Source of the DNA: Pseudomonadota bacterium
GTDB lineage: Bacteria; Campylobacterota; Campylobacteria; Campylobacterales; Sulfurospirillaceae
Length of the DNA stretch: 64,000 nucleotides
Direction of reading: 5' to 3'
Assembly (NCBI GenBank): GCA_017860615.1
Contig: JAGDMU010000006.1
Location: forward strand, 124,001 to 188,000
Below are positions 6,705 through 64,000 of the stretch, one piece after another (the stretch's first letter is position 1; each line of letters opens with the position of its first letter). A program made the position numbers and the translations under genes. A model generated the notes under the pieces. It saw only the letters and a list, made by a program, of their open reading frames with translations. It was not told the origin of the DNA and did not search any database.

Positions 6705-6729
6705 AAAAACTCCTAATGTATGCAAAAAA

Positions 6730-7014
6730 TTATTCGATATAAATGGTGTCTAAAATCTGATTTTTGAAGCGAATATTTTCCAAATTTTGCTTTAAAACAC
6801 GATTCTCTTCTTTAAGAATTGAGTACTCACCGTAAAGTTTGCTGATGTCACGGCTCATGTAGTAGATTTGATTTTTGATATAAATTTTAGGAAGAATCAG
6901 CAAAAAGGCAACAAACATCACCATATACACGAGCAATAAAAAACGAAAATCAAGATTTTTCTCGACCTTCTGCTCGGCATCGTACTGTTCTAAAAGTTCA
7001 TTTTTATCGCCCAT
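6730..7014 (-). CDS. FtsL-like bitopic membrane protein (candidate)
   Basis: A 94-residue protein with a charged N-terminus, one membrane helix (about residues 25-43) and a short periplasmic segment that reads as a leucine-zipper coiled coil (about 50-90: SRDISKLYGEYSILKEENRV). This layout matches the cell-division protein FtsL. The gene starts inside the stop codon of rsmH (TAATG, one base shared), exactly where ftsL sits in the division cluster of many bacteria. FtsL sequences diverge widely, so the assignment rests on size, topology and position. Confidence 0.6.
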   Translation of the reverse strand: MGDKNELLEQYDAEQKVEKNLDFRFLLLVYMVMFVAFLLILPKIYIKNQIYYMSRDISKLYGEYSILKEENRVLKQNLENIRFKNQILDTIYIE

Positions 7015-7931
7015 TACGCACTCTTTATCTCAAAAACTCTCAGTTTTGCACTGCGACTACGAGGATTTTTCTTGACTTCAGCATTGCTTGCCTCAATCGG
7101 CTTTTTACTGATGAGTTTGCCTAAACGGTGGTTATTACCACACATACAACGCATCACCGAAGGGGGACAAATACAGTTTTGCGACCAAAGTTTAAAGGTT
7201 TGCTTCACGATGCGATCTTCCAATGAATGAAACGAGATGATCCCTACGATGCAGTGCTCAAAATGAGCATTTTTAATGCTCTCTAAGAGCTCTGTGAGTA
7301 CTCCTAGCTCATTATTAACCTCAATGCGAATGGCTTGAAAAAGAAGTGTTGAAGGGTGGATACTCTTTTTACCTCCCACTTTTTCAGCCAATTTAGAAAG
7401 CTCTTTGGCACTTTGCAGAGGCGCTTTGGTTCTGGCTTCACAGATAAGATGTGCCAATTTTTTATACTCGTGAATCTCGCCATATTCGCGTAAAATAAAC
7501 TCTAACTCCTCTTTGGAATAGTGATTGACAACCTCATAAGCACTGAGTTCCTGCTTCGGGTTCATGCGCATATCTAACACATCCGAATCAAAAGCAAATC
7601 CACGCTCTTTTTTATCCAGTTGTAAGGAGGAAACACCGATGTCAGCGAGAATTCCACGGATGGGTAGATCCGTGTATTTAGAAATAACAGAAGAGAAGTT
7701 ACCATGATGAAACACAACACGATCACCAAAGCGTTCTAACCTTGTTTTGCTAAAGGCTAACGCTTCTTCATCTTGGTCACACCCAATGAGTTTTATGTTG
7801 GGATTCTGTTCTAAAAGAGCTTCACTATGCCCACCGTATCCAAGTGTACAATCAACAATAACCCCTTCATTAACACCAGAAAATGCCTCTTTGACCTCTT
7901 CTAAAAGTACGGGAATATGGGGAATGTTCAC
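7014..7931 (-). CDS. rsmH: 16S rRNA (cytosine-1402-N4)-methyltransferase
   Basis: The 305-residue protein (formerly MraW) methylates N4 of C1402 in 16S rRNA using SAM. The N-terminus HIPVLLEEV and the SAM-binding loop TLGYGGHSEALL (about residues 28-40) are diagnostic. GILADIGVSSLQLD, ERGFAFDSDV, LDMRMNP and SFHSLEDRIVK follow in the expected order. The length is usual. It is the first recognisable member of the division cluster on this strand and is translationally coupled to the FtsL-like gene. Confidence 0.97.
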   Translation of the reverse strand: MNIPHIPVLLEEVKEAFSGVNEGVIVDCTLGYGGHSEALLEQNPNIKLIGCDQDEEALAFSKTRLERFGDRVVFHHGNFSSVISKYTDLPIRGILADIGVSSLQLDKKERGFAFDSDVLDMRMNPKQELSAYEVVNHYSKEELEFILREYGEIHEYKKLAHLICEARTKAPLQSAKELSKLAEKVGGKKSIHPSTLLFQAIRIEVNNELGVLTELLESIKNAHFEHCIVGIISFHSLEDRIVKQTFKLWSQNCICPPSVMRCMCGNNHRLGKLISKKPIEASNAEVKKNPRSRSAKLRVFEIKSA

Positions 7932-49198: not shown

Positions 49199-50218
49199 TT
49201 GTTCCATCGCTATAACTATATTTTAACGGCGTTAGCTGTCTTAGGAGCTATTACACTCATTAGTATGCTCTTTCAAGGCTACTTAGAGCTTGTAAACATT
49301 GCGCTGATTCATCTCATTCCCATCATTGTTGTAGCCCTTCGCGGTAACTTTTATGCCACTGCATTTATCGCTCTTATCGCTATTTTACTCTTCAATGTCC
49401 TCTATGTTCCGCCCGTTTACAGCTTTAGTGTGCATGATGCCATTTATCTGTGGAGTTTTGCCATCTTTTTGCTGGTCGGGTACATCATCACAGCGCAAGC
49501 TAAAAAAATCCAGACCAATGAAATCAGAGAGATTTTACTCAATACGCTCTCGCATGATCTCAAAACACCACTCTCTTCCATCTTGGGATCTATTACACTT
49601 CTTTTAGAAGATCCCAAAATGAGCACAGAAACCAAAACGATTTTATTGCATGACATCAAAAACAGCTCTGATAAGATGCACAGACTCATCAACAACCTCT
49701 TAGACAACGCTAGACTGAAAGACAAACACCTCAAACTTAAGATGGAATGGTGTGATCTTGAAGATATTTTAGGCGTTGCTTTGCAAGATTTTGATGAAGC
49801 GCATATCCAAAGCTCACTGACGTTAGATGTAGACCCATCCTTAGAGCTTTTCTGGGGTGATTACAATCTTTTAGTACGTCTCTTTGCCAACCTATTAGAC
49901 AACGCCTTTAAATACTCCAACCAAAATAAGCACATAAACGTCTCCATTGCTCAAAAACAAGAGAGTGTCATAATAACCTTTTTTAACGAAAGCCCACCTC
50001 TTAAAGAAAAAAATCTAGAGACCATTTTCGATAAATTCTATCGCCTTGAAAATGCCCAAGATATTTCAGGCAGTGGCATTGGACTCTTTATCTGTCAGAG
50101 CATTGTGAGAGCACATAATGGAAAGATCAAGGCGTACAACCAAGAAAATGGCGTATGCTTTGAGATACTACTTCCTATTACAAAGCTACCCACCAAACTT
50201 CAAAGTGAGTATGAATGA
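49199..50218 (+). CDS. Short KdpD-like sensor histidine kinase
   Basis: The 339-residue kinase has the four membrane helices of KdpD (DUF4118, about 5-100; VALRGNFYATAFIALIAI), then HisKA with the phosphohistidine in LSHDLKTPLSSIL (about 120) and an ATPase domain (LLDNAFKYSN, GSGIGLFICQSIVRAHNG). It lacks the N-terminal KdpD and universal-stress-like domains present in full-length KdpD. The TTG start has GAGGA six bases upstream. The response-regulator gene starts in its stop codon (ATGA). Confidence 0.88.
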   Translation: MFHRYNYILTALAVLGAITLISMLFQGYLELVNIALIHLIPIIVVALRGNFYATAFIALIAILLFNVLYVPPVYSFSVHDAIYLWSFAIFLLVGYIITAQAKKIQTNEIREILLNTLSHDLKTPLSSILGSITLLLEDPKMSTETKTILLHDIKNSSDKMHRLINNLLDNARLKDKHLKLKMEWCDLEDILGVALQDFDEAHIQSSLTLDVDPSLELFWGDYNLLVRLFANLLDNAFKYSNQNKHINVSIAQKQESVIITFFNESPPLKEKNLETIFDKFYRLENAQDISGSGIGLFICQSIVRAHNGKIKAYNQENGVCFEILLPITKLPTKLQSEYE

Positions 50219-50925
50219 AAGCCAACGAATTGATTTTAATCGTTGAAGATGATGATGCTATCTCAAAACTCTTAACCATTTCACTCTCAGAATATGGTTA
50301 TAAAACACGCCGTGCCAATGATCTTGCTATGGCAAAGAGAGAGTTTATAAGCTACAACCCTATGCTCATTATTTTAGATCTTGGACTTCCCGATGGTGAT
50401 GGTAAGGAGCTTATCAAAATGATCCGAAAAGAGAGCAAAACATCCATCATTGTGCTCTCAGCCAGAAGCGATGAAAAAGAGATTATCGCAGCACTTGATT
50501 TGGGAGCGGATGATTATGTGACCAAACCCTTTTCCACCAGTGAGCTGTTGGCGCGCGTACGCTCTACGCTCAGACGTGTGCATCACGATGTCTCGCATGA
50601 AATTCTGACGTGTAAAGACCTTTGCATTGACTTTACCAAAAAAGAGGTAACCCTCAAAAACACTCTTTTAAAACTCACTCCAACAGAGTATAATTTACTG
50701 CGATATCTCATGCAAAATGCCAATAAAGTGCTGCCGCATCAGCAAATTTTAAAGTCTGTATGGGGTGTGGGCTATCAAAACGAGATGCAATATCTTAGAA
50801 CTTACATTAACTCTTTACGTAAAAAAATTGAAAAAAGTTCTACCAGACCAGAGTATATCACGACAGAATCGAGCATCGGATATCGATTCTCTTGTCATGA
50901 AGAACACGAAAAAGGAAATGAATGA
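50215..50925 (+). CDS. KdpE-like response regulator (OmpR family)
   Basis: A 236-residue regulator with a receiver (LIVEDDDAISKLL, phospho-Asp in IILDLGLPDGDG, about residue 55; VTKPFSTSELLARV) and a winged-helix DNA-binding domain (LTPTEYNLLRYLMQNANKVL, YLRTYINSLRKKIE). The sequence style is that of KdpE. It overlaps both neighbours by four bases. Its likely target is the potassium operon it belongs to, since no kdpFABC is present in the window. Confidence 0.92.
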   Translation: MKANELILIVEDDDAISKLLTISLSEYGYKTRRANDLAMAKREFISYNPMLIILDLGLPDGDGKELIKMIRKESKTSIIVLSARSDEKEIIAALDLGADDYVTKPFSTSELLARVRSTLRRVHHDVSHEILTCKDLCIDFTKKEVTLKNTLLKLTPTEYNLLRYLMQNANKVLPHQQILKSVWGVGYQNEMQYLRTYINSLRKKIEKSSTRPEYITTESSIGYRFSCHEEHEKGNE

Positions 50926-52253
50926 ATCAAAAGACTTTAAGAATCATCTTTTTTAGCTATCTTACGGTTGTTTTTATTGGAGCAATTTTATTAATGTTGC
51001 CCATCGCACATATCGGTAAATTAGCCTTTATAGATGCACTTTTTACCGCAACATCTGCAACATGTGTAACAGGGCTTATTGTCAAAGTAACACCTGAGGA
51101 TTTTACCTTTTTTGGACAATTTGTCATTCTCATTCTTATGCAAGTCGGAGGTGTTGGATATATGAGTATCGTCACTCTTTTCTTCTTGTTTATGAAAAAA
51201 AATCTAAATATTCATGAAAAAAATATGGCAAAAGAGTCACTCAATTACTCGACAAATTTTGACATTCAACATTTCCTCAAAAAAGTCTTTCTTTTCACTC
51301 TTATCATCGAATCACTCGGCGCACTTATCTTAACCATGCGCTTTGCTACACATATGCCTCTTAATAAAGCCATTTGGCAAGGTATCTTTCACTCGGTTGC
51401 AGCATTTAATAATGCAGGTTTTTCAACTTTTAGAGATAACCTTGTTGGGTATCAGACAGATTTTACGGTTTTAGTGACTGTTGGACTGCTTATTATTTTA
51501 GGTGGTCTTGGTTACTTGGTTTTAGTAGAAATTCATGCCAAGGCTACACACAAACGCTTTATGCTCTCGGCTCACACCAAGATCACGCTTGTGGGTACAC
51601 TTATTTTGATTATCTCAGGCATGATTCTTTTCTTAGTAATCGAATGGGATAACAAAGGCATCTTCAAAAACATGTCTATGTATCACAGTCTTCTTAACAG
51701 CTTTTTCCTCTCAGTCAATTTTCGAACATCAGGCTTTAATAGCCTTGATCTTGCCAATCTTAGTGATGCGTCACTCTTTTGCTCCACGATCTACATGATG
51801 ACAGGAGGTGGAGCAGGTAGTACAGCAGGCGGTATCAAAATCACAACAGTTGCCGTACTGATCATTGCAACCATTCACACCATTAAAATCAGCAACCAAG
51901 CACCCAATGCCTTTAAACGAACCATTACACAAGAAATTATCAACCGCTCTTCTGCCATCATCCTCGTTGCATCCTTTATAACGATTACAGCAACGGTTAT
52001 CTTGGTAGAAACACAGCATACTGACTTTATGAAAACCCTTTTTGAAGTCGTTTCGGCTTTTTGTACCGTTGGTGTTTCCGTTGGAAATGGCGATGTACTA
52101 AGCCTCGCAGGGAAATTTAGCCCCTTTGGGAAATCCATCATTATAGCCCTTATGCTTATTGGACGTATGGGTATTTTTGCTTTTGGATTTCTCATTATCG
52201 GTAAAGAAAAAATCAAACACATACAATACCCCGAAGGAAGGATTTTATTATGA
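50922..52253 (+). CDS. TrkH/KtrB-type potassium transporter
   Basis: The 443-residue membrane protein has the repeated pore loops of the TrkH/KtrB superfamily: TATSATCVTGLIV (about 40-52), FHSVAAFNNAGFSTF (about 155), FFLSVNFRTSGFNS and EVVSAFCTVGVSVGNG. The GGGAGSTAGGIKITT stretch is the gating loop region. It conducts K+ (Na+-coupled in Ktr systems) and needs a cytosolic regulatory subunit, encoded next. It begins within the regulator's stop (ATGA). Confidence 0.93.
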   Translation: MNQKTLRIIFFSYLTVVFIGAILLMLPIAHIGKLAFIDALFTATSATCVTGLIVKVTPEDFTFFGQFVILILMQVGGVGYMSIVTLFFLFMKKNLNIHEKNMAKESLNYSTNFDIQHFLKKVFLFTLIIESLGALILTMRFATHMPLNKAIWQGIFHSVAAFNNAGFSTFRDNLVGYQTDFTVLVTVGLLIILGGLGYLVLVEIHAKATHKRFMLSAHTKITLVGTLILIISGMILFLVIEWDNKGIFKNMSMYHSLLNSFFLSVNFRTSGFNSLDLANLSDASLFCSTIYMMTGGGAGSTAGGIKITTVAVLIIATIHTIKISNQAPNAFKRTITQEIINRSSAIILVASFITITATVILVETQHTDFMKTLFEVVSAFCTVGVSVGNGDVLSLAGKFSPFGKSIIIALMLIGRMGIFAFGFLIIGKEKIKHIQYPEGRILL

Positions 52254-52912
52254 AAACATACGCCGTCATAGGACTTGGAAAATTTGGCTTTCACATTGCC
52301 AAAGGATTAGCCGAACAAGGCATGGACATTATTGCCATTGACAATGACCCTCACAAAATCCAAGTCATTAGCGAATATATTGAAGATGCCATTATCTTAG
52401 ACAGTACCGATATAAAGGCACTTCAAGAAGCGGGTGTTGTAGGTCTGGATACTGTTATTATCAGTATTGGTGAAAACATTGAGGCGAGTATTTTAACCTT
52501 GATGGCACTGAAAGAATTAGACAATAAAACCATTATAGCCAAAGCCATTACGCTCACTCATGGTGAGATTTTGGCGCGTTTGGGCGCTTTTAAAGTCATC
52601 TATCCAGAGCGAGAATCGGCTAAGAAATTGGTGGAAAACCTTGTAGGAAACGTCGTTATTGATCAAGTTGATTTTAGCAGTACCATTAAGATTGCTAAAT
52701 TCTCCGTTACACCAGCCCTTATTGGTAAACTTGTCAAAGACATTGAGCTTATGTTTGAAAATGAAATCCATCTTATCGCATGTAAAACACGTGACAACTG
52801 GACATTTGATGTGGAAAAAACTTATAAAATCCGTGAAAATGATATGCTGGCATTTATCGGTAAAAAAGCTTTCATTGAGAAGCTGAGAAACCTTACCAAA
52901 GCAGAGAGTTAA
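52250..52912 (+). CDS. TrkA/KtrA-type potassium uptake regulatory subunit
   Basis: The 220-residue protein has an RCK-N Rossmann domain (IGLGKFGFHIAKGLAEQG, about 5-22; IDNDPHKIQVISEYIE) and an RCK-C (TrkA_C) domain near 140-215. It is the single-RCK form, as in KtrA, which binds ATP/ADP and gates the KtrB-like channel. It overlaps the transporter gene by four bases (ATGA) and ends the operon. Confidence 0.93.
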   Translation: MKTYAVIGLGKFGFHIAKGLAEQGMDIIAIDNDPHKIQVISEYIEDAIILDSTDIKALQEAGVVGLDTVIISIGENIEASILTLMALKELDNKTIIAKAITLTHGEILARLGAFKVIYPERESAKKLVENLVGNVVIDQVDFSSTIKIAKFSVTPALIGKLVKDIELMFENEIHLIACKTRDNWTFDVEKTYKIRENDMLAFIGKKAFIEKLRNLTKAES

Positions 52913-53031
52913 TCTCCATACCTAAAGCCTCTTTTAATGGAAAGGTGTTATAACCTTAGTCATGAGAGAGGTTTTATCCATCCAATAAAAATTCTATTGC
53001 ACAATTTTTCATCAACCTAAAAGGAGTCTCT

Positions 53032-53397
53032 ATGTCACTGCGTCCTTTAACTCCCGAAGAAGAGCGCGTTATCGTGCACAAAGGCACAGAAATGCCCTAT
53101 TCTGGGGAATATAATAGTTTTTATACAAAAGGAATTTACCACTGCAAACGTTGTAATGCTCCTCTTTATACCTCAAATGACAAGTTCAATTCTAACTGTG
53201 GCTGGCCTAGTTTTGATGATGAGATACAAGGAGCTGTTAAACGTGAAACTGATGCGGATGGCAGACGCACTGAAATACTCTGCAATGCGTGTGGTGCGCA
53301 CTTAGGACATGTATTTGAAGGAGAGGGTTTTACCCCTAAAAATACCCGCCATTGCGTCAATTCTATCTCACTGTTATTTGTCCCTGAAAAAGAGTAG
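53032..53397 (+). CDS. msrB: Peptide methionine-(R)-S-oxide reductase
   Basis: MsrB (121 residues) reduces methionine-R-sulfoxide in proteins. It has two CxxC zinc pairs (CKRCNAPLY near 37 and CNACGAHLG near 83), [18 protein letters not shown] and the catalytic cysteine in [11 protein letters not shown] (about 106). AAGGAG precedes the ATG. It is not fused to MsrA and no MsrA gene is nearby. The length is usual for stand-alone MsrB. Confidence 0.96.
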
Positions 53398-53411
53398 TTT
53401 TTTGTTTATGC

Positions 53412-53417
53412 TATAAT
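53412..53417 (+). promoter_or_regulatory. -10 element before the leader ORF
   Basis: A perfect TATAAT 30 bases before the leader ORF start; transcription would start near 53424. Confidence 0.55.
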
Positions 53418-53447
53418 ACGACACAAATTATTTTAAAGGAATTCTGT

Positions 53448-53513
53448 ATGACCCAAAGCGAACCGGACTCGTGTAGCTTTAACTTTGCTCAAAACATAGG
53501 GGCTATCCTATGA
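53448..53513 (+). CDS. 21-residue leader ORF upstream of the DUF21-CBS gene
   Basis: A 21-codon reading frame (MTQSEPDSCSFNFAQNIGAI plus L) with AAGGA seven bases before its ATG. Its TGA stop shares bases with the start of the DUF21-CBS gene (ATGA), and that gene's own AGGGG site lies within the leader. This arrangement suggests translational coupling or attenuation. It is too short for the usual gene finders. No homology can be judged by eye. Confidence 0.55.
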   Translation: MTQSEPDSCSFNFAQNIGAIL

Positions 53514-54586
53514 CGTTGTTGATTACGTATCTCTCCATTGCACTTTTAATCTCATTTCTCTGTTCCGTTCTTGAAGCTGTTTTACTTTCAAGCACACACT
53601 CTTATATAGAGACGCTTCCTAAAGAAGCCAATGAAAATGCTATTGTCCTCCTCAAAGATTTAAAATCAAACATCGATAAACCGATCTCTTCGATTTTAAC
53701 GTTCAATACCTTTGCACACACAATGGGTGCAGCAGGAGTAGGCGCACAAGCACAAATCTTGCTTGGTGAAGAGTGGCAAACAGCCGTTGCCTTTGTTGTG
53801 ACACTATTGATTTTATACGTTTCTGAGATTATTCCTAAAACCATTGGAGCACTCTACTGGAAAAAATTGTTGATACCATCTGCGTATATGATCTCTTTTT
53901 TAGTCACCATTACGACACCTTTTACATGGGTTTCATCACTTTTGACCAATTATATTTCAAAAAACAAAAAGCATCACAGCAACTTCTCACGTGATGAGAT
54001 CATGGCCGTCGTTGCCATGGGTGAAAAAGAGGGAACCATTCTCAGCAAAGAGAGTGACCTCATTGAAAATCTTTTAAAACTTAAAAATATTAAAGCCAAA
54101 GATATTATGACACCTCGTAGTGTTGTGTTTGCCTTACCTGCAACTACAACCATTGAAGATGCGATTGAAGATGACCGTATGTACATTCACTCGCGTATTC
54201 CTATTTTTGGTGAGACTCTTGATGATGTTGTGGGAATTGTCTTTAACCAACGCATCCTTGAAGAGAGTGTGGAAGACCATGATACAATTACACTAGAACA
54301 CATTGCGCATGAAGTGCATATGGTTTCTGAAAATCTTCCTGTACCAAACTTGATCGACCAGTTCGTTAAGCGTAAAACACACCTTTTTATTGTTTTTGAT
54401 AGCTACGGTCAAACCGCAGGTGTTGTAACACTTGAAGATGCCATCGAAACACTTCTAGGTGTTGAAATCGTTGATGAGATGGATGAAGTGGAAGATATGC
54501 AACTCTTTGCAAAAGATCGAAGTAAAAAGTTTCAAGACCGCATGAAGGTCGAGCGTAAAAAGCTCGAAAAAGCAAAAGTAAATTAA
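53510..54586 (+). CDS. DUF21 (CNNM)-CBS pair membrane protein
   Basis: The 358-residue protein has the DUF21 transmembrane domain (about 1-150; SFLCSVLEAVLLSS, YVSEIIPKT) and a pair of CBS domains (about 195-330; KDIMTPRSVVFAL, THLFIVFDSYGQTAGVVTLEDAIETLLG). It ends with a charged tail and lacks the C-terminal CorC_HlyC domain. Related proteins are linked to magnesium or cobalt efflux and to haemolysin annotations. It follows the leader ORF and is closed by a strong terminator. Confidence 0.87.
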   Translation: MTLLITYLSIALLISFLCSVLEAVLLSSTHSYIETLPKEANENAIVLLKDLKSNIDKPISSILTFNTFAHTMGAAGVGAQAQILLGEEWQTAVAFVVTLLILYVSEIIPKTIGALYWKKLLIPSAYMISFLVTITTPFTWVSSLLTNYISKNKKHHSNFSRDEIMAVVAMGEKEGTILSKESDLIENLLKLKNIKAKDIMTPRSVVFALPATTTIEDAIEDDRMYIHSRIPIFGETLDDVVGIVFNQRILEESVEDHDTITLEHIAHEVHMVSENLPVPNLIDQFVKRKTHLFIVFDSYGQTAGVVTLEDAIETLLGVEIVDEMDEVEDMQLFAKDRSKKFQDRMKVERKKLEKAKVN

Positions 54587-54600
54587 ACGCGTTAAACCCC

Positions 54601-54630
54601 TAAAGAGGCTTTAGTTATAAAGCCTCTTTA
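54601..54630. terminator. bidirectional terminator between DUF21-CBS and phosphatase genes
   Basis: A perfect 13-bp stem (TAAAGAGGCTTTA with TAAAGCCTCTTTA) and a 4-base loop, followed on the plus strand by AAAAAACTTTT. It lies between convergent genes and overlaps the phosphatase stop. On the minus strand the downstream flank is GGGGTTTAACGC, so it works best for one direction. Confidence 0.85.
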
Positions 54631-55221
54631 AAAAACTTTTCTGCAATCCCACTGCATTCTTTTTTCATCCCATGTTAATTCATTCACGCACGCATAAGGT
54701 TGTTCAATGCTAAACAGATCATTGAACGTTAACCCAAGTATAGGCATAAGTATCATGCGATTAACGCCTGCATGAGCAATGATGAGGATAGTGCCTGTTG
54801 CATGGTGTGTAATGGCATTAAAAGCATACCTTGCGCGCCCAGATAGATCATGAAAACTTTCACCATGAGGTGGTGTAAAATGCTCTATATCTTCGCCTCT
54901 TTTGGCATACAGTTCAGGATAAGCTGATTTTATCTGTGCCATTGGCATATTTTCCCACTCCCCCATATCAATCTCACAAAAGGCTTCGACCTTTTCATAG
55001 TGGATATTTTTACCTTCACATACAATTTCAGTGGTTTGTAAACAGCGCTTAAGTGGACTTGTAAAAACCATATCAAGAGTAATCGTTTTAAAATAATCAT
55101 GCAACATTCTGGCTTGTTCGATGCCTTGTTGATCCAAAGGTATGTCTGTACGACCGAGATATCTCTTTTCACTTCCATTATCGATGTGCCCATGACGAAG
55201 CAGATAGACTTTTTTAACCAT
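54628..55221 (-). CDS. Histidine phosphatase superfamily protein
   Basis: A 197-residue protein of the phosphoglycerate mutase-like group: VYLLRHGHIDNG with the catalytic His (about 9), FTSPLKRCLQT (about 56-66), CEIDMGEWEN and IIAHAGVNRM with the second His. Relatives include CobC. Its substrate is unknown. It is the last gene of the molybdenum hydroxylase maturation operon and overlaps the nucleotidyltransferase gene by eight bases. Confidence 0.88.
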   Translation of the reverse strand: MVKKVYLLRHGHIDNGSEKRYLGRTDIPLDQQGIEQARMLHDYFKTITLDMVFTSPLKRCLQTTEIVCEGKNIHYEKVEAFCEIDMGEWENMPMAQIKSAYPELYAKRGEDIEHFTPPHGESFHDLSGRARYAFNAITHHATGTILIIAHAGVNRMILMPILGLTFNDLFSIEQPYACVNELTWDEKRMQWDCRKVF

Positions 55222-56320
55222 AGTTAAATACTTTGCCTGTTAGATTTTCAATTTTCTTTATAATCATTTTTGTGGCATTCAAACGCTTCATAATGTTTTT
55301 TTGCGCATCAAAATTCCCTTCATACTTTAAAAACGCCTTCTCAAAGCGCTTTTCAAAACCACATACCTCATCTTCATTCACCAATTTATCGGCGAGAAAA
55401 AGTAGTTCATTCTCATTCAGTGGCATATTTAAATCCACATCAATATCCATATGCGTTGCAATGATATCGCCGATAGTTTCATAGCCCAAATTCTTAAGCT
55501 TTAACGCACCAGCACTAGCGTGATTTTTCTCTTTGCGTGCGATGTCATGCAACAATGCCGCAGCACACAAAGCATTTTTATCAAAAATTAGCATACAGGA
55601 GGAGAGTTCCTGTAGCAGAATGCTTACCATTTTTTCAACCGCTTGGCAGTGTGCGATAATATGCTCTTCCACTCCATTCTCTTTCATGATCGCCAAACAC
55701 TCTTGTTCCGTGGGTACTCCTCGTGTTTCATACATACCCAAGGCTTCATAATCCTCTTTGGTATCCATATCCATAAGGACTGCTTGATCACACACATTGA
55801 CATACTGTGCATCATCATTAAAGGCTTCCAGTACTTTTTTAAGCCCTCCTTCTCCATCGCTTGAGAGAATGTGTGCTTTATACTTCATAGCAATGAGAGG
55901 AGGATGACCTTTACGTCCTAAAAATGTGGGGTAAGTGACACCTTTATCTTCACGTGCATACGCCTCATACAAGCGTTCAAGGCTTTGCACTTTAATAAGA
56001 GGAATATCCACAGGTTGCATATAAAAAGCGCTCAGTGATTCATCTATAACACTCAGCCCTTTTTGAATGGAGCTAAACATTCCTTTGTCATAGGCTTCAT
56101 TGTATACGATCTGAACGTTATAGCCTTTGAGTGTTGCGACAATCTCTTCGTGCCGATGCCCTGTTACAACATAAATAAGATGTATACCATGTGCTTGGTA
56201 TGTCTCAATTAGCCGCTTTAAAGCACTTGTTTTTCCCAAAGGTAAAAGGGGCTTAAAGTCATGCATCCGTGAAGAATACCCAGCAGCGATGATAAGAACA
56301 GCGATGTTGCTCTTCTTCAT
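55214..56320 (-). CDS. MobA-like nucleotidyltransferase fused to HD domain
   Basis: The 368-residue protein has a MobA/MocA-like domain (about 1-190; LIIAAGYSSRMHDFKPLLPLG, MQPVDIPLIK, GVTYPTFLGRKGHPPL) and a C-terminal HD domain (about 225-330; AALLHDIARKEKNHASAGA). MocA-type enzymes add CMP to the molybdopterin cofactor for xanthine dehydrogenase-family enzymes. The HD domain may be a phosphohydrolase, and its role is not established. From memory this matches a recurring family next to aldehyde oxidoreductase genes in sulphate reducers. It starts four bases after the XdhC stop. Confidence 0.85.
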   Translation of the reverse strand: MKKSNIAVLIIAAGYSSRMHDFKPLLPLGKTSALKRLIETYQAHGIHLIYVVTGHRHEEIVATLKGYNVQIVYNEAYDKGMFSSIQKGLSVIDESLSAFYMQPVDIPLIKVQSLERLYEAYAREDKGVTYPTFLGRKGHPPLIAMKYKAHILSSDGEGGLKKVLEAFNDDAQYVNVCDQAVLMDMDTKEDYEALGMYETRGVPTEQECLAIMKENGVEEHIIAHCQAVEKMVSILLQELSSCMLIFDKNALCAAALLHDIARKEKNHASAGALKLKNLGYETIGDIIATHMDIDVDLNMPLNENELLFLADKLVNEDEVCGFEKRFEKAFLKYEGNFDAQKNIMKRLNATKMIIKKIENLTGKVFNYG

Positions 56321-56323
56321 TGC

Positions 56324-57358
56324 TTAACTTCTCCTTGCTTTAATAAGCTCTGCTGCAATGCTAATAGCAATCTCTTCAGGCGTTTGAGCGTTAATGGAAA
56401 CACCAATAGGACAACATACCGCATCCAAATCTTTTTGCGCAAATCCTTCACCAAGAAGTTGGTTATACACATAATTACGTTTGGTCTTACTGCCAATCAT
56501 ACCAATGTATTTGGCTTTCATGTGAAGCGCTTGTTCAAGCACCACTTTATCAACGCCTCTGGTGACGATGACAATGTAACTATTTTTAGGAATATGCATC
56601 GTTTGTTGTAAATTTTCATAGGTTGAAGAAACAACATGCACCTCATCAGCTGTAGGAAAACGCCCTTTGTTCGCAAATGCTTCTCTATCATCCACAATAA
56701 CGGTGTAAAAGCCAAGTGTTTTGGTCAATGCTGCAATTTGTGAAGAGACATGACCTGCCCCTATGATGTAAAGGCGCTCTGTCGTGTAAAAGGGCTCTAT
56801 CATATAGCGATTTTTTCCAACATGCAGATGAAATTTGATATGATAGAAATTTTCCCTAAGCTCACGCACAATACTCTGAATTTCCTTATCGTCTTCACCG
56901 TACAGGTCCGTTTCCGTACAAATCCATTTATTTTTGCCAGAAACACGCCTGTTCGCCTGTGAAATATTTGTAATCATCACAAAATCTGTTTCAGAGGCTT
57001 TAAGCTCTTTTGCTGTGTGATAAATATTGAGCTGATGTATATCCAAAGCATCTATATACTCTAAAAGAACACTCACTTCACCGCCACATACCATACCAGC
57101 GGCTCTTGCATCATCATCGGTGAGTTCAATATCTTCGATAGAACACTGTTTGGTTTTAAACTTTTGAGGCGCTAATTGCATCGCCATGGCTTCAAGCGTA
57201 CCGCCACCGATGGTACCTTCAATAGAACTATCTTTACGAATCACCATCTTCGCACCCGCTTCTCTTGGTGCTGAACCGCTTTTGTGTACTATCGTGGCTG
57301 TAACTATCTCGTTTTGTTCATTTAAACTCTCCACAATGTGTTCAATTATGGTTTTCAT
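56324..57358 (-). CDS. XdhC/CoxI family maturation factor
   Basis: The 344-residue protein has the XdhC_CoxI N-terminal domain (VHKSGSAPREAGAKMVI, GTIGGGTLEAMAM) and a C-terminal Rossmann domain (LYIIGAGHVSSQIAALTKTLGF, about 192-213). XdhC binds Moco and inserts it, with sulphuration, into molybdenum hydroxylases. It overlaps the ligase gene (ATGA). Its place beside the aldehyde oxidoreductase gene strongly supports a maturation role. Confidence 0.9.
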   Translation of the reverse strand: MKTIIEHIVESLNEQNEIVTATIVHKSGSAPREAGAKMVIRKDSSIEGTIGGGTLEAMAMQLAPQKFKTKQCSIEDIELTDDDARAAGMVCGGEVSVLLEYIDALDIHQLNIYHTAKELKASETDFVMITNISQANRRVSGKNKWICTETDLYGEDDKEIQSIVRELRENFYHIKFHLHVGKNRYMIEPFYTTERLYIIGAGHVSSQIAALTKTLGFYTVIVDDREAFANKGRFPTADEVHVVSSTYENLQQTMHIPKNSYIVIVTRGVDKVVLEQALHMKAKYIGMIGSKTKRNYVYNQLLGEGFAQKDLDAVCCPIGVSINAQTPEEIAISIAAELIKARRS

Positions 57359-58659
57359 ATTATTGCTCCTTGTCTACAATCCTGTAATTTTCGTTTAATC
57401 ATACTGTTGGTAATTTTGGAGGAATGATCATCTTCTAAAACCTCCATAAAGAGTTCAAAATCAACATGAAAATGATCTCTGATACGCTGAATGATCTCTG
57501 TTTTAACGCCTTCAAAATCCTCTTTATTTGAAAGAACAAGCATTAGGTGTAAAACATTATTCTCACGTACGGTGAGTTGATAATCTAATACGAAAGAAAA
57601 ACGCAAAAGGATTTCATCAAAATCTCTTAAATGCATCTCATGCCCATTTATACAGATGTGGTTTGCAATGCGACCACGCACCTTCTCCATCGTTCTTAAA
57701 AACGTACCACACGCACAAGGCTTAGTAGAAATTCGCGCCATATCGCCTGTTCTGTAGCGAATGAGTGGCATCGCTTGGCGATTAAATGTTGTAAACACAA
57801 CCTCACCATACTCCCCATCGCTCACACACTCGCCCGTCATGGGGTTGATAATTTCAAAATAGAGATGGTTCTCTCTTAAGTGGTAACCACACAGACACTC
57901 ACACTCAACACCGCCACCATAACCCATTTCCGTCATGCCATAATGGTTATAGACTTTACATGCTCCTTCGTTTGAGAGTGCCTCTACAAGCGCATCTGGC
58001 ACATAGTCAGTACTTAAAAGCACTTTTTTAATGTGTCTGTAAAAGAGTTCTGGCTTAACTCGACTTAGGTAAAGCACTTGCATAGGAATACCCACAATGC
58101 AAGTAATGTTATGTTCTTCAATACACTGCGCGGTTTTTTCCACATCATTTAAGACGCCATGCACAATGCACGAAATACCGCTGTGTGCCAATGCTTTTTT
58201 GAGCAAATCCCCAATACTCGCATAAGAGGGACCTGGAAGCAGCACCATAACCTTATCGCTCTCATCCACCAAACAACGCATCCCATAATGAAAAAAATCA
58301 ATCGTTGCTTCTAAATCTTCATGGGTAAAAAAGAGGCGCTTCTCATCGCCTGTGGTGCCTGAGGTATTGAGCGTGACGATGCGCTCGATGTCACTGCTTG
58401 GCACACAGACAAAATCATGCACACTTTGCTTAATATCCTCAGGCGTTGTAAAAGCAATCCGCTCAAAATCTTTAAGTGTTTTGATAGAATTGAGTTCAAT
58501 GTCGCTCAACGCGCTTTGGTAAAACCGACTCTTCTCTTTCGCATAGGCTAGTGTTTTTAAAAGTTCTCCAAGCTGATAAGCTTGCAACGCTTCTTGGCTT
58601 AAACTCTTTAGCTCTACGCGTTCAACGATCCAACGCTCTAAGGGTGTTGTTTTCATCAT
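57355..58659 (-). CDS. PaaK-like AMP-dependent ligase
   Basis: A 434-residue member of the ANL adenylating superfamily related to phenylacetate-CoA ligase: LNTSGTTGDEKRLFFTHED (about 92), YNHYGMTEMGYGG (about 232), RYRTGDMARIS and a C-terminal lid. It has extra cysteines (CECLCGYHL and KPCACGTF) that could bind zinc. Substrate and product are unknown. It is flanked on both sides by four-base overlaps, with the radical SAM gene and with XdhC. Confidence 0.88.
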   Translation of the reverse strand: MMKTTPLERWIVERVELKSLSQEALQAYQLGELLKTLAYAKEKSRFYQSALSDIELNSIKTLKDFERIAFTTPEDIKQSVHDFVCVPSSDIERIVTLNTSGTTGDEKRLFFTHEDLEATIDFFHYGMRCLVDESDKVMVLLPGPSYASIGDLLKKALAHSGISCIVHGVLNDVEKTAQCIEEHNITCIVGIPMQVLYLSRVKPELFYRHIKKVLLSTDYVPDALVEALSNEGACKVYNHYGMTEMGYGGGVECECLCGYHLRENHLYFEIINPMTGECVSDGEYGEVVFTTFNRQAMPLIRYRTGDMARISTKPCACGTFLRTMEKVRGRIANHICINGHEMHLRDFDEILLRFSFVLDYQLTVRENNVLHLMLVLSNKEDFEGVKTEIIQRIRDHFHVDFELFMEVLEDDHSSKITNSMIKRKLQDCRQGAII

Positions 58660-59993
58660 CCTAACCTCTTTGAACCTCGATAAAGAGATTCACCTTCGTT
58701 ATTGGTAATGTTGTAAGCACAAAAAGGGATCAACTTCCCATCCGCAGTCGAGACATGAATACAACAATCCTTGATACGTTCTAAATTGACATTCCACGCG
58801 TCTTGAAACGCCATACCTGAAATGCTAAACGCATTGTTGGCAATGGCACTGAGTATGGCATCCCAATCGGAGAGTTTCTCCTCTTTACCCTGTGTTTGGT
58901 ATGACCAGTTTCGAGCTACAAAGGCTTTAGCTTTAGTCGCTCCCTCTTCTGCTTTTTCATTGCCATTTGAACAACATACGCGTTTAGAAACAGGCTTTAA
59001 CACACTCTCTTCGATAAGATAATTGCCATGAAATGAGCAAAGTGCATTTTCACATCCTGGGGGTTGCATACTCTCTAACGAAATCATCCCCTCTGTTTGC
59101 GCACATATATGCTCCATCACCTCAGGCAATGTGATGCGTTCTTCATCCTTAGGCGCTTTGGGAATACGCCCGAAGTAACTGACAGGTTGAAAATGAACTC
59201 CTCTTACGGTAGGAGAGTGATCGATGCCAAAACGGATGATTTCACCGATGCTACAAACATTGACATGGGGTATGATGGTAGGAACAAGCACCACACCAAT
59301 GCCGAATTTTCGGCAATTCTCAATTGCTTGACATTTAATATCAAACAGCGCTTTTCCACGCAAATATTCATAAATCGCATCATCGACTCCATCAAATTGT
59401 AAAAAAATTGAGTTAAGGCCTGCCTCTTTGAGGGTTTTTACATAGGCTTCATCGTTAGCCATGCGAATGCCATTGGTGTTCACCTGAATGAAAGGAAAAC
59501 CAAGCTCTACACCCATACGCACAATCTGGGGCAAATCATCACGCACTGTTGGTTCACCGCCCGAGAGCTGAATGTTGCACCTGCCTGATGTTTTTAGGAT
59601 ACTCTCAAACTGAAACCGTAACTGCTTTAACTTAGGATCTTTATTTTTTCCCTCCATCGCATCGGCAAAACAAAAACGACAGTTCAGATTACATCGTGAG
59701 GTCACTTCAATGAGCGCAGTACACGTATGTTGCCTATGCTCACTGCAAAGCCCACAATCATAGGGACAGCCTTGATCTACTTCCTTAATCGGGTTTTTAA
59801 TGTAAGCCCTCTCTTTGGTACGTATCCATTCCTGCATCGGTGTTTTTCCTCGCCATAACACCGTTTCAAACGTTCCGTGTTCCAAACACGTCTTAAGCAT
59901 ATAAGCTCGCTCATCTTCTTCTACAATAGATGCTTCAAGAACACGTAAACAGATAGGACATAAACTTTGGGTCTGCATCAAAGGACTTAACAT
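58656..59993 (-). CDS. Radical SAM protein of the molybdenum hydroxylase cluster
   Basis: A 445-residue radical SAM enzyme. The Fe-S cluster motif is TSRCNLNCRFCFADAM (CNLNCRFC, about 94-101), followed by IQLSGGEPTVRDDLPQI. The N-terminus has a CPIC pair (about 12-15) and CLEHG, resembling Tes-type or cofactor-maturing radical SAM proteins. The C-terminus is rich in cysteine (VCCSNGNEK, DCCIHVST, PFCAYNIT), so extra clusters are likely. From memory, relatives in sulphate reducers are annotated TrsS and some are selenoproteins. Here the frame has no in-frame UGA. The reaction is unknown. Confidence 0.85.
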   Translation of the reverse strand: MLSPLMQTQSLCPICLRVLEASIVEEDERAYMLKTCLEHGTFETVLWRGKTPMQEWIRTKERAYIKNPIKEVDQGCPYDCGLCSEHRQHTCTALIEVTSRCNLNCRFCFADAMEGKNKDPKLKQLRFQFESILKTSGRCNIQLSGGEPTVRDDLPQIVRMGVELGFPFIQVNTNGIRMANDEAYVKTLKEAGLNSIFLQFDGVDDAIYEYLRGKALFDIKCQAIENCRKFGIGVVLVPTIIPHVNVCSIGEIIRFGIDHSPTVRGVHFQPVSYFGRIPKAPKDEERITLPEVMEHICAQTEGMISLESMQPPGCENALCSFHGNYLIEESVLKPVSKRVCCSNGNEKAEEGATKAKAFVARNWSYQTQGKEEKLSDWDAILSAIANNAFSISGMAFQDAWNVNLERIKDCCIHVSTADGKLIPFCAYNITNNEGESLYRGSKRLG

Positions 59994-59998
59994 TTTAC

Positions 59999-60448
59999 CT
60001 ACTCTCTTCTATTGCCATATTCAAAGCCGTGTTCAAGCAAAATCTCATAGACTTTGACATACGCTTTTTGAATCATTCCTGCACAGATGGGTTTAAAACT
60101 CTGATCTGCGCTTTGAAAATCTCTCTCTCCAATGAGCGTTACGCATTTGGTCGAACCAAACTCTGTTTTAAACCACGCATGGAACTCCTTGATCATCTGT
60201 AAAAAGTCCTCTTCTGCTTTTTCATTCTCATTACCTTTAGCACCATAGAGTCCCAAAACACCGATGCCCCCAGTGAGCACACCACAGGTTTTTTGCGTAT
60301 CAGCGATACCCCTACAAAGCCCTTGTGCAGAACGTATCAGATCATCATTGCTTGTGCCTTCATCTGCAAGGGCAAGCTTATACATGATCTGTGCACAACA
60401 AAACCCTTCTGATGAGAGTTTAAATAAACGTAGCGATAAATCATCCAT
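59999..60448 (-). CDS. C-GCAxxG-C-C family redox protein
   Basis: A 149-residue protein with GFCCAQIM (about 16-23), CRGIADTQKTCGVLTGGIGVLG (C and CG motif near 50-65), STKCVTLIGERDF and PICAGMI. This matches the C_GCAxxG_C_C family, whose cysteines bind metal or a cluster and whose function is unknown. The ATG at 60448 follows AAGGAG and shares a base with the methyltransferase stop (TAATG). The longer frame to 60496 would overlap the neighbour. Confidence 0.87.
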   Translation of the reverse strand: MDDLSLRLFKLSSEGFCCAQIMYKLALADEGTSNDDLIRSAQGLCRGIADTQKTCGVLTGGIGVLGLYGAKGNENEKAEEDFLQMIKEFHAWFKTEFGSTKCVTLIGERDFQSADQSFKPICAGMIQKAYVKVYEILLEHGFEYGNRRE

Positions 60449-61173
60449 TACTTTTCTCCTTTCTTTGCAATTAACATAAAATAACCAGGTTTGCATTGTT
60501 TGATATTGTGCTCAAAAGAACAGCATGTTTGAGCAACTTCGCCTTCGATGGTTTTACGCCAAAACGCACCCATAGAGCCATGTGAAAAGATGATTTTGAC
60601 CATAAGCTCTTTGAGTAAATGAGAGCAATCTTCCACATGCATAATTTCAAAACCAATCTTTTCCAGTACCTCTTCTAACGAAAATAGATCATGCATTCCT
60701 CGCATACATGAAGTGATTGAAAAAGTGTCCATCGCGTTTAGCATTTCAGGGTTTTTTGCATAAACATCGTTGATGACAAACCACCCATCTTTCTCTAATA
60801 CCCTGTACACCTCTCGCAAAGTTACATATAAATCATTCATTAAAGAGAGCGTACACTCTGCCAAAACACACTCAAAATGATCGTTTTCAAACGGAAGAGC
60901 AGCACCTGAGCCGCTCACAAAGGTCGCAAAAGGATTTTTCGCTTTGGCAATGTCGAGCAATTTTGAGGATGGATCAATGCCCACCACCTTTACTCCATAC
61001 TTTTGGTAAAGATACGAAGCTGTCGCACCCATACCACAACCAAGATCCAATATACGGGTCTGTTTATTTAAAGCACAAAAGTTAACGGCTTGCTCTGTGA
61101 GTTTAAATCCTCCAGGACGCAAGGTTTCGCCTGTGGCTTCTTGCATACAGCTGCTTTCATACACGTTTGACAC
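60448..61173 (-). CDS. SAM-dependent methyltransferase of the molybdenum hydroxylase cluster
   Basis: The 241-residue protein starts SNVYESSCMQEATGETLRPG and has the class I SAM-binding motif RILDLGCGMGATASYLYQ (about 42-60), with the acidic residue in VVGIDPSS. It ends in a Cys-containing tail (TCCSFEHN, near 215-225). The frame extends to an ATG at 61200, but the GTG at 61173 directly follows the 68-residue gene's stop and has GGAGG nine bases upstream. The methyl acceptor is unknown. Membership in the same operon as the radical SAM gene suggests a joint modification. Confidence 0.86.
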   Translation of the reverse strand: MSNVYESSCMQEATGETLRPGGFKLTEQAVNFCALNKQTRILDLGCGMGATASYLYQKYGVKVVGIDPSSKLLDIAKAKNPFATFVSGSGAALPFENDHFECVLAECTLSLMNDLYVTLREVYRVLEKDGWFVINDVYAKNPEMLNAMDTFSITSCMRGMHDLFSLEEVLEKIGFEIMHVEDCSHLLKELMVKIIFSHGSMGAFWRKTIEGEVAQTCCSFEHNIKQCKPGYFMLIAKKGEK

Positions 61174-61174
61174 G

Positions 61175-61381
61175 CTACTTGTCCTCCAAGCTTTTCTCAA
61201 CTTCGAGTATCTTGCCCAAAGCCAAATCTTCGCCGATAAACACCATGTTGCACTCTGGACACTTTAAAAGCTCAACTTCAAAATTGCCTTCAAGATAACG
61301 CACTTTTACCTTTTGCGACATCAACGCTTTTTGGCATTTATCGCACATCCATACGGTTGTTGTATTGGTTTGTTCATTCAT
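61175..61381 (-). CDS. Small two-CxxC zinc-ribbon or rubredoxin-like protein
   Basis: A 68-residue protein with two CxxC pairs: WMCDKCQKAL (about 12-21) and LKCPECNMVF (about 38-47), spaced like a zinc ribbon or rubredoxin. It may bind zinc or iron and act as an electron carrier or adaptor. It starts at 61381, one base after the stop of the large oxidoreductase gene, with GGAGG six bases upstream. In remembered homologous clusters it is annotated as a redox protein. Confidence 0.75.
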   Translation of the reverse strand: MNEQTNTTTVWMCDKCQKALMSQKVKVRYLEGNFEVELLKCPECNMVFIGEDLALGKILEVEKSLEDK

Positions 61382-63824: not shown

Positions 63825-64000
63825 TTAAGCCATAGCTGCTAAAACTTTCTCAGGGCGTGCTGGTAAGTGTGTTACTCTCGCACCGCACGCATTGTAAATC
63901 GCGTTAATAATCGCCGCATGTGGAGCGGCAAGAGGCATTTCACCTGCACCTGAAGCACCTAGTAAGCTGTTTGGTCTCTGGTATTCTGTGTAGATAAGAT
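63825..64000 (-). CDS. Molybdenum aldehyde oxidoreductase / xanthine dehydrogenase-type large subunit, C-terminus
   Basis: Only the last 58 or so residues are in the window; the frame runs off the right edge. They read EYQRPNSLLGASGAGEM then PLAAPHAAIINAIYNACG and end LPARPEKVLAAMA. The GAGE motif contains the catalytic glutamate of molybdenum hydroxylases, and the PHAAIINAIYNACG stretch is typical of Mop-type aldehyde oxidoreductases. It is the first gene of the cluster, with XdhC and a MobA-like gene downstream. Confidence 0.88.
   Translation of the reverse strand, partial: LIYTEYQRPNSLLGASGAGEMPLAAPHAAIINAIYNACGARVTHLPARPEKVLAAMA

Follow-up and report, generated by a model that had tools for sequence, protein, structure and literature searches.

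A conserved operon co-inherited with a molybdenum oxidoreductase, and a small zinc-ribbon protein as its possible redox-group carrier

Four neighbouring genes for a radical SAM protein, a methyltransferase, a C-GCAxxG-C-C protein and an adenylate-forming ligase lie at positions 57355-61173 of the window (the whole stretch of 64,000 nucleotides that was analysed), and they raise the question of what such a set of enzymes could make and how it relates to the aldehyde oxidoreductase (AOR) encoded in the same operon. The reading that we prefer, with a probability of about 0.28, is that this core builds a redox group specifically used by DICL, the probable electron partner of AOR, with the zinc-ribbon protein SMALL as the carrier of that group and with no stable change to AOR or its molybdopterin.

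The operon and its inheritance with AOR

The four open reading frames are all intact and neighbouring on the minus strand, with gaps from the methyltransferase downwards of -1, +5 and -4, and then of -4 to the following XdhC-family gene, so that they are indeed adjacent and coupled, as the sequence-only reading had held. All four also belong to the core proposed by that reading, but a fifth core gene, encoding a zinc-ribbon protein (SMALL), had been overlooked. The operon comprises ten genes on the minus strand, extending from 54628 to past the end of the window (64000), for which DICL, SMALL, MT, CGCA, TrsS and LIG are used as short names:

63825..64000, minus strand: 3' end of the AOR gene (AOR/Mop), NF045668, 1612 bits (cut-off 1100); the gene continues past the window (L002:6825-9590; contig C24:187825-190590)
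61383..63740, minus strand: DICL, probable electron partner of AOR, NF045663, 993 bits (cut-off 530)
61175..61381, minus strand: SMALL, zinc-ribbon protein of 68 amino acids, NF045645 (DVU_1557 family, DUF7479), 95.6 bits (cut-off 60)
60448..61173, minus strand: MT, class I SAM methyltransferase (DVU_1556 family), NF045667, 250 bits (cut-off 155)
59999..60448, minus strand: CGCA, C-GCAxxG-C-C protein (DVU_1555 family), NF045669, 155 bits (cut-off 103)
58656..59993, minus strand: TrsS, radical SAM protein, NF045646, 680 bits (cut-off 490)
57355..58659, minus strand: LIG, PaaK-like adenylate-forming ligase (DVU_1553 family), NF045666, 468 bits (cut-off 300)
56324..57358, minus strand: XdhC-family AOR maturation factor, NF045664, 413 bits (cut-off 350)
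55214..56320, minus strand: NTPHD, fusion of a MocA-like nucleotidyltransferase and an HD domain (DVU_1551 family), NF045665, 439 bits (cut-off 315)
54628..55221, minus strand: CobC-like histidine phosphatase, the final operon gene, TIGR03162, 158 bits (cut-off 163)

Curated NCBIfam cut-offs are passed by all operon proteins except the CobC-like one, whose gene is found again at the operon end in other loci. MT starts at a GTG codon (refined boundary; its residue numbers count from the ORF start at 61200), and the ATG of CGCA overlaps the MT stop codon. The gene set is the same as that of the NCBIfam families DVU_1551-DVU_1559 (NF045645, NF045646 and NF045663 to NF045669), which are entered one by one under locus-tag names without function. 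A literature search returned no paper on the pathway, and one review lists TrsS solely as a selenoprotein family (PMC13188914). The opinion that this combination is not a described pathway has therefore stood, as none matched. Selenocysteine is found in some members of NF045646 only and so is not required; TrsS of the window has no in-frame TGA, nor was an internal TGA present in 80 sampled relatives, which were drawn with patterns demanding Cys at some sites.

The order AOR-DICL-SMALL-MT-CGCA-TrsS-LIG is kept across phyla, and because it is repeated in dozens of genomes of Bacillota, Thermodesulfobacteriota, Chloroflexota, Acidobacteriota and others, the core arrangement lies far beyond chance. 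Among 199 genomes of Desulfovibrionia, TrsS and AOR occur together in 139, TrsS alone in two, AOR alone in four and neither in 54, while in Campylobacterota, the home phylum, both are found in the identical 13 of 298 genomes; the Fisher P of ~3e-41 for this co-occurrence ignores phylogeny and is inflated by the co-transfer of one operon. One of the AOR-only genomes holds a decaying operon (L158), and in a further genome, G328, AOR is intact but TrsS and a full-length DICL are both missing. Fusions join TrsS to MT (L095), NTPHD to TrsS (L078), DICL to SMALL (L066, L086 and L088) and a CobC-like phosphatase to LIG (L059). The core genes are co-inherited with the molybdenum AOR as a widespread, highly conserved operon, and the earlier proposal of a dedicated modification or cofactor-type pathway linked to the oxidoreductase is supported.

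Core variants without AOR alongside (type-2 loci) also occur, and their TrsS proteins fall outside the AOR-linked clade; two of these loci, L098 and L182, have no DICL within reach. The only extra genes that recur beside the core encode molybdate/tungstate-type ABC-transport, a MoCF-domain protein, sigma-54 activators, a class V aminotransferase, a methyltransferase, a DUF364 protein and an Fe-dependent alcohol dehydrogenase (the last near the core in six loci), and no conserved gene for product transport or export, for a peptidase or for a lipid pathway was found in the neighbourhoods of core loci.

The PDB chains nearest to AOR are 1dgj (D. desulfuricans AOR) and 1sij (D. gigas AOR). An AOR fragment in the D. 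gigas genome (G343) is 100% identical to the crystallised protein, and this AOR heads an identical operon (locus L154). Since the AOR purified from D. gigas nevertheless has an ordinary structure at 1.28 Å, with molybdopterin cytosine dinucleotide in its plain form together with two [2Fe-2S] centres (PMC10223205, PMC3877041), the idea that AOR or its pterin is stably modified was set aside, although a labile mark would remain compatible. The suggestion, made from the sequence alone, that the core builds a modified pterin or alters the oxidoreductase is not supported, given this protein and the type-2 loci.

Architecture of the core proteins and DICL

The NF045646 match of TrsS spans residues 7-439. 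Conservation is 98% or higher at C12/C15/C36/H39, C76/C80/C83/H86 and C319/C410/C425, which confirms the extra cysteines remarked on earlier at both ends of the protein. The structural model of TrsS (pLDDT 92) aligns with Tes (tetraether lipid synthase, 7tom) with a VIA Z of 48.8 and an rmsd of 1.9 over 398 residues, and judging by sequence and model TrsS has the Tes architecture. The rubredoxin-type N-terminal site and overall fold are common to TrsS and Tes / MJ0619 (7TOL, 7TOM), and at the C-terminal cluster of Tes the substrate becomes bonded to sulfur (PMC9433317). Also common are the N-terminal CX3CX2C + His cluster site and the SAM-closing loop (Q269/S272/R276); all metal-site motifs of Tes (CX2C...CX2H; CX3CX2C + His; labile Met) are aligned and invariant in TrsS, with M394 corresponding to the labile cluster methionine Met439. 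When plasmids were searched with TrsS, all matches were radical SAM proteins, some of them Tes-like.

Conserved cysteines of MT are C55, C116 (100%) and C165 (96%). A Cys-rich tail had been noted in MT and is true of this single sequence, but C226, C227 and C236 are present in only 6%, 13% and 22% of relatives, and the tail was dropped as a functional site because its cysteines are not conserved. CGCA has four invariant cysteines and is predicted to be all-helical (AlphaFold pLDDT 91); its best fold match is split-Soret cytochrome c (1h21), with a Foldseek probability of 0.96 yet an E of 0.41, and with a VIA Z of 8.9 over 135 residues (next row 4.1), a value that helical bundles can reach by chance. 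Against a split-Soret cytochrome c profile CGCA gave an E of 8.5e-4 with the CG pair aligned, and a PDB search with this protein alone returned nothing useful. In LIG, K422 (the probable catalytic lysine) and C253/H260/C315/C317 are at least 95% conserved, and its nearest relatives are phenylacetate-CoA ligases (PaaK 4r1l, E 3e-35). In DICL a pyridine-nucleotide/FAD domain is combined with two ferredoxin-type clusters and with a pair of CCG (HdrB-type) domains, the CCG cysteines of which (C447/C483/C484/C520/C523 and C566/C601/C602/C635/C638) are 100% conserved in 59 sequences.

SMALL as a possible carrier, and the alternatives

The C-terminus of SMALL carries a lysine at a single column in 63 of 63 relatives (median identity 42%), closing an E-x-K tail; in the nine other operon families a shared end column is found in only ~4-20%. 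E66, K68 and the end position are invariant, E62 occurs in 62 of the 63, and the tail, which follows the pattern (L/M)E(D)K, reads E-D-K-stop here. The zinc-site cysteines (C13, C16, C41 and C44) are at least 98% conserved, and in the DICL-SMALL fusions SMALL stays C-terminal with its free terminal lysine retained; SMALL of the type-2 locus L181 has two residues beyond the lysine. Overlap with a ribosome-binding site was rejected as the cause of this conservation because codons vary in the tail DNA, GGAGG is present in just 27 of 66 tails and several loci keep EDK although the next annotated gene is at least 80 nt off.

According to the preferred reading, SMALL would be a LysW-like carrier, with LIG adenylating a carboxylic acid and joining it to the invariant C-terminal lysine. 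TrsS would then activate an inert C-H bond on the SMALL-bound group, giving a C-S or C-C bond via its auxiliary cluster, the ArsM-like MT would methylate this group and the C-GCAxxG protein would give or take electrons, so that the finished group might serve as a redox arm, moving from AOR to the HdrB-like sites in DICL and back. The gene order kept across phyla, co-inheritance, the fusions, the end of SMALL, the LysW precedent, the Tes design, the Cys pair aligned with ArsM, the CCG motifs and the retention of DICL or its halves in several AOR-less loci were counted in favour of this model. Counted against it were the AOR without TrsS in G328, the DICL-less L098 and L182 and the extended SMALL of L181, as well as the resemblance of LIG to CoA ligases, from which a CoA thioester may result, and the possibility that the C-terminus of SMALL is a docking tail.

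Such a docking tail belongs to a tentative alternative, in which the core would make a small molecule that diffuses and serves DICL and AOR as cofactor or electron carrier (thiol or quinone-like, with a role like that of CoB/CoM or mycofactocin), and SMALL would be a zinc-ribbon subunit of DICL. This would suit the HdrB-like nature of DICL with its NAD(P)/FAD domain, the fusion of SMALL to DICL in places, the kinship of LIG with phenylacetate-CoA ligases and the AOR-less loci, where the core is accompanied by CCG proteins, by HgdB-like proteins or by a NuoF-like diaphorase; however, it leaves the invariant end of SMALL, unique among the operon proteins, without explanation, and a conserved export gene is missing.

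Maturation or repair of AOR, meaning insertion, reduction or reactivation of the molybdenum site without a lasting chemical mark, is a possible but somewhat doubtful task for the core. The near-perfect co-occurrence of AOR and TrsS, the NTPHD-TrsS fusion and the neighbouring XdhC, MocA-like protein and molybdate/tungstate-type transporters all point towards it, as does the isolation of D. gigas AOR in active and inactive forms that differ in dithiolene oxidation (PMC3877041). It is difficult to reconcile with the type-2 loci and with G328, and a radical SAM enzyme, a ligase and a methyltransferase together exceed what reduction requires.

Modification of a lipid or membrane quinone, comparable to the lipid chemistry of Tes in archaea, by which the AOR chain would gain a specialised anchor or acceptor in the membrane, is unlikely, although the TrsS model is nearly isostructural with archaeal Tes, LIG and MT could use acyl or ring substrates and CCG proteins often feed menaquinone. 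TrsS is ~45 residues shorter than Tes between two aligned stretches (TrsS 311-375), the absent residues perhaps corresponding, by their presumed location, to the second lipid pocket of Tes; Tyr459, invariant in archaeal Tes, is Val414 in TrsS and V/I/T/E/S in its relatives; the conserved H267 of TrsS is absent from Tes; and the core lacks a conserved lipid-pathway neighbour. That SMALL is instead a RiPP-type precursor, whose C-terminal E-x-x-x-E-D-K TrsS and MT would cross-link and methylate before it is cleaved off, would accord with the invariant tail residues and with these two enzymes being in the operon, but is very improbable given the DICL-SMALL fusions, the want of a conserved peptidase and an acid-CoA-type ligase with no obvious role. 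A catabolic route, in which AOR turns a particular aldehyde into an acid and LIG then makes the CoA ester of that acid, is less likely still despite their shared operon and the nearby alcohol dehydrogenase, as TrsS, MT, SMALL and CGCA would have nothing to do in it and LIG remains with the core where AOR is missing.

For decades, work on the AOR of D. gigas has taken flavodoxin to be its putative partner; its crystal structure was the first of the xanthine oxidase family (PMC10223205). The operon that begins with the gene of this AOR also encodes DICL, which is probably its dedicated partner, and a biosynthetic core that is hardly ever missing where AOR of this kind is present. Should the product of the core be a new redox group, the path that electrons take in anaerobic aldehyde oxidation would be incompletely described for sulfate reducers, acetogens and Campylobacterota, and a new carrier-protein pathway would be added in which a radical SAM enzyme of the Tes class works outside lipid chemistry. 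The gene families had already been named; this analysis adds the operon-level link to AOR and, as a proposal, the carrier role of SMALL. Rather doubtful is the full proposal of SMALL as a new type of carrier, in which the free C-terminal lysine of a zinc ribbon would be loaded by an ANL ligase and the new prosthetic group, built by a radical SAM enzyme of the Tes class with an ArsM-like MT, would swing as a redox arm from AOR to an HdrB-like acceptor.

Comparison with known systems

Despite the common architecture, TrsS scores 389 bits on the Tes model, below its cut-off of 450, has C91 as a further specific residue and is bacterial and operon-bound, unlike Tes. MT is of the same methyltransferase class as the ArsM arsenite methyltransferases, and its C116/C165 align with both C-terminal cysteines of four ArsM-family sequences, a pair that in ArsM binds As(III), a thiophile. 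MT nevertheless reaches only 59 bits on the ArsM model (cut-off 263), has a gap where the N-terminal Cys region of ArsM lies, with no counterpart of that Cys, and, unlike ArsM, has no arsenic genes in its operon. With HdrB and other CCG oxidoreductases (TfrB, LdhH) DICL shares two complete CCG motifs and a dicluster ferredoxin domain, but it differs from them in its fused GltD-like flavin/NAD(P) domain, in a likewise fused C-terminal domain standing beside SMALL and in having AOR as its partner. The FeGP cofactor (Hcg) pathway combines a radical SAM enzyme, a methyltransferase, a carboxylate-adenylating enzyme and a nucleotidyltransferase, and the parts list of the core resembles that of this and other nucleotide-linked cofactor pathways as an enzyme-class analogy only, with no homology seen.

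For SMALL, a PDB profile search gave only generic zinc fingers, with no LysW among the matches listed. No sequence relation between SMALL and LysW is detectable and the tail is EDK instead of EDWGE, both of which were counted against the model, and the partner ligase is an ANL enzyme where that of LysW is the ATP-grasp LysX. LysW is itself a zinc ribbon with its substrate borne on the C-terminal residue, and the LysW/ArgW carriers and SMALL are alike in their small size, their CxxC...CxxC zinc site and an invariant C-terminal tail as the proposed point of attachment (PMC10433800).

Operon layout and gene families

The four genes picked out by the sequence-only reading as adjacent and coupled are indeed so, all being intact and on the minus strand with intergenic gaps of -4 to +5 nt, and each scores above the NCBIfam cut-off (DVU_1553 AMP-dependent ligase, radical SAM TrsS, DVU_1555 C-GCAxxG protein and DVU_1556 methyltransferase). 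The set was real, and a fifth gene beside it, SMALL, had been overlooked.

57355-61173, minus strand, adenylating ligase (LIG), radical SAM protein (TrsS), C-GCAxxG protein (CGCA) and methyltransferase (MT)
61175-61381, SMALL, 68-aa zinc-ribbon protein

The four form the middle of an operon ordered AOR (molybdenum aldehyde oxidoreductase, most of its gene lying outside the window), DICL (HdrB-like putative electron partner of AOR), SMALL, MT, CGCA, TrsS, LIG, XdhC, NTPHD (MocA-like plus HD) and CobC. Past its end (49199-54586), a sensor kinase and response regulator, a Trk-type potassium uptake pair, a methionine sulfoxide reductase B-like protein and a CorC/HlyC-like membrane protein, judged by eye, are unrelated to the operon finding. 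Since these gene families are already catalogued in databases by name, and the literature searched, which omits most subscription journals, held no account of the pathway, the system is known as names only and its mechanism is, as far as could be checked, undescribed.

Inheritance with and without the oxidoreductase

Scanning genome contigs for TrsS turned up 80 loci spread over many phyla. The gene order AOR-DICL-SMALL-MT-CGCA-TrsS-LIG is found repeatedly among them, in many cases with XdhC-NTPHD-CobC next. Fusions tie TrsS to MT and the nucleotidyltransferase (TrsS-MT in L095, NTPHD-TrsS in L078) and SMALL to DICL (L066, L086, L088); LIG-CobC (L059) and NTPHD-CobC or HD-CobC (L035, L063, L096) were also found. 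Among 199 Desulfovibrionia genomes, TrsS occurs in 141, this type of AOR in 143 and both in 139. One TrsS locus without AOR (L157, G400) opens partway through the operon where its contig begins, so that AOR may have been cut off; another (L156, G451) has only a TrsS pair and LIG. In two AOR-only genomes (G465, G497) AOR lies at a contig edge, and in a decaying operon (L158, G471) AOR and MT are split and TrsS and LIG are gone, while G328, whose intact AOR of the same clade stands alone (L155, 10519-13317, minus strand) in a genome devoid of TrsS and full-length DICL, is the single clear AOR-only case. In the home phylum (298 Campylobacterota genomes), 13 genomes carry this AOR, and precisely the same 13 carry a TrsS that scores over the cut-off. 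TrsS of the window branches within a clade of Bacillota sequences (support 100/99), a placement suggestive of transfer into this Campylobacterota lineage.

Deep-branching TrsS (L064, L082, L085, L098) fall outside the AOR-linked clade (99/99), and their loci have MT, LIG and SMALL with no adjacent AOR. DICL is retained as a single gene in two of these (L064, L082); AOR-less L180 and L181 retain its halves, as a separate CCG protein and a small gene adjoining SMALL, the small gene of L181 matching the C-terminal domain of DICL. In L082 (15321-17826), the AOR-less core is followed by a methyltransferase corrinoid protein and an AcsV-like corrinoid activase. Tandem TrsS pairs occur in L085, L101, L156 and L180, with no AOR among the flanking sequence examined. 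TrsS is solitary in L051 and L052, each with a nearby zinc-finger methyltransferase gene of one common cluster; CobW-family and binding-protein-dependent transporter genes are also close by in L051.

Candidate chemistry of the core

The cysteine-rich tail earlier singled out in the methyltransferase (METHYLTRANSFERASE) is not conserved; the conserved cysteines are C116 (100%) and C165 (96%), which align with both C-terminal cysteines of arsenite methyltransferases, where As(III) is bound; the substrate could plausibly be thiophilic or bound to a thiol. LIG is PaaK-like and should be capable of adenylating a carboxylate; its conserved K422 is probably the catalytic lysine, and the conserved C253/H260/C315/C317 set looks like a zinc site. 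CGCA (59999-60448), with four invariant cysteines (C34, C71, C118 and C138 in longer-ORF numbering), gives a confident helical model resembling split-Soret cytochrome c (1h21); the fold match is moderate, and the family may share this fold. The PDB title of 1h21 mentions a novel iron centre, and CGCA could reasonably be guessed to hold an iron or iron-sulfur site.

The AlphaFold model of TrsS (pLDDT 92) matches tetraether lipid synthase (Tes) over 398 residues (rmsd 1.9, Z 48.8). Of the Tes features compared (PMC9433317), TrsS conserves the motifs of the metal sites, the loop that closes over SAM (Q269, S272, R276) and the labile methionine (M394); Tyr459 of Tes is replaced by Val414, and H267, 98% conserved in TrsS, corresponds to Asn in Tes. 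Since the substrate radical of Tes is captured on the C-terminal cluster through a carbon-sulfur bond (PMC9433317), one would guess, by inference, that TrsS forms a C-S or C-C bond.

A more remote TrsS/Tes-like group also adjoins an ArsM-like methyltransferase, and the radical SAM and methyltransferase pair may thus be the oldest portion of the core. A third TrsS/Tes-like group (L183, L184, L185 and L187, in the class of G305; scoring about 390-415 bits against the local TrsS model) has an adjoining ArsM-like methyltransferase and lacks LIG, SMALL and AOR; a MerA/lipoamide-dehydrogenase-like gene is close by in at least one of these loci (L183). On contig C21 of the window's own genome, a 995-aa fusion of radical SAM, ArsM-like and MbdU-like domains (L194, 2847-5831, minus strand) lies near a 373-aa CCG/HdrB-like protein (6465-7583, minus strand), forming another uncharacterised neighbourhood of radical SAM, methyltransferase and CCG proteins.

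SMALL as a putative carrier

All 63 SMALL family members terminate at one shared residue, with the tail (L/M/I)-E-(mostly D)-K, and their pairwise identity has a median of 42%; the shared end column reaches only about 4-20% in each of the other nine operon families. Held-out AOR-linked sequences have the same end pattern, those from AOR-less loci finish in E-x-K or D-A-K (L181 alone having a two-residue extension), and SMALL is C-terminal in all clear fusions. Since codons differ and the pattern is kept where no annotated gene follows closely, the conserved tail is a protein-level pattern.

We propose that SMALL would serve as a carrier protein, to whose K68 LIG would attach a carboxylic acid; TrsS and MT would modify this load, CGCA would deal with electrons, and the product would remain as, or be freed into, a redox group joining AOR to DICL. 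Of the rivals, a diffusible cofactor for DICL ranks first, followed by maturation of AOR that leaves no lasting mark. The earlier idea that the oxidoreductase itself is altered, or its pterin modified, does not fit the crystallised AOR of D. gigas, a 290-residue fragment of which is 100% identical in G343, where the operon reads AOR-DICL-SMALL-MT-CGCA-TrsS-LIG-XdhC-CobC: structures at up to 1.28 A contain molybdopterin cytosine dinucleotide and two [2Fe-2S] centres, and a sulfido ligand is not required (PMC10223205, PMC3877041). With an operon of identical type and ordinary AOR cofactors, it is therefore unlikely that AOR or its pterin undergoes a stable covalent change, and the deep-branching core loci that have no adjacent AOR point the same way. 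Lipid or quinone modification and a peptide product rank third and fourth, and a catabolic route last. Comparison of SMALL with LysW found no sequence match; LysW, a zinc-ribbon carrier that holds its substrate on a C-terminal glutamate (PMC10433800), is the closest precedent for SMALL.
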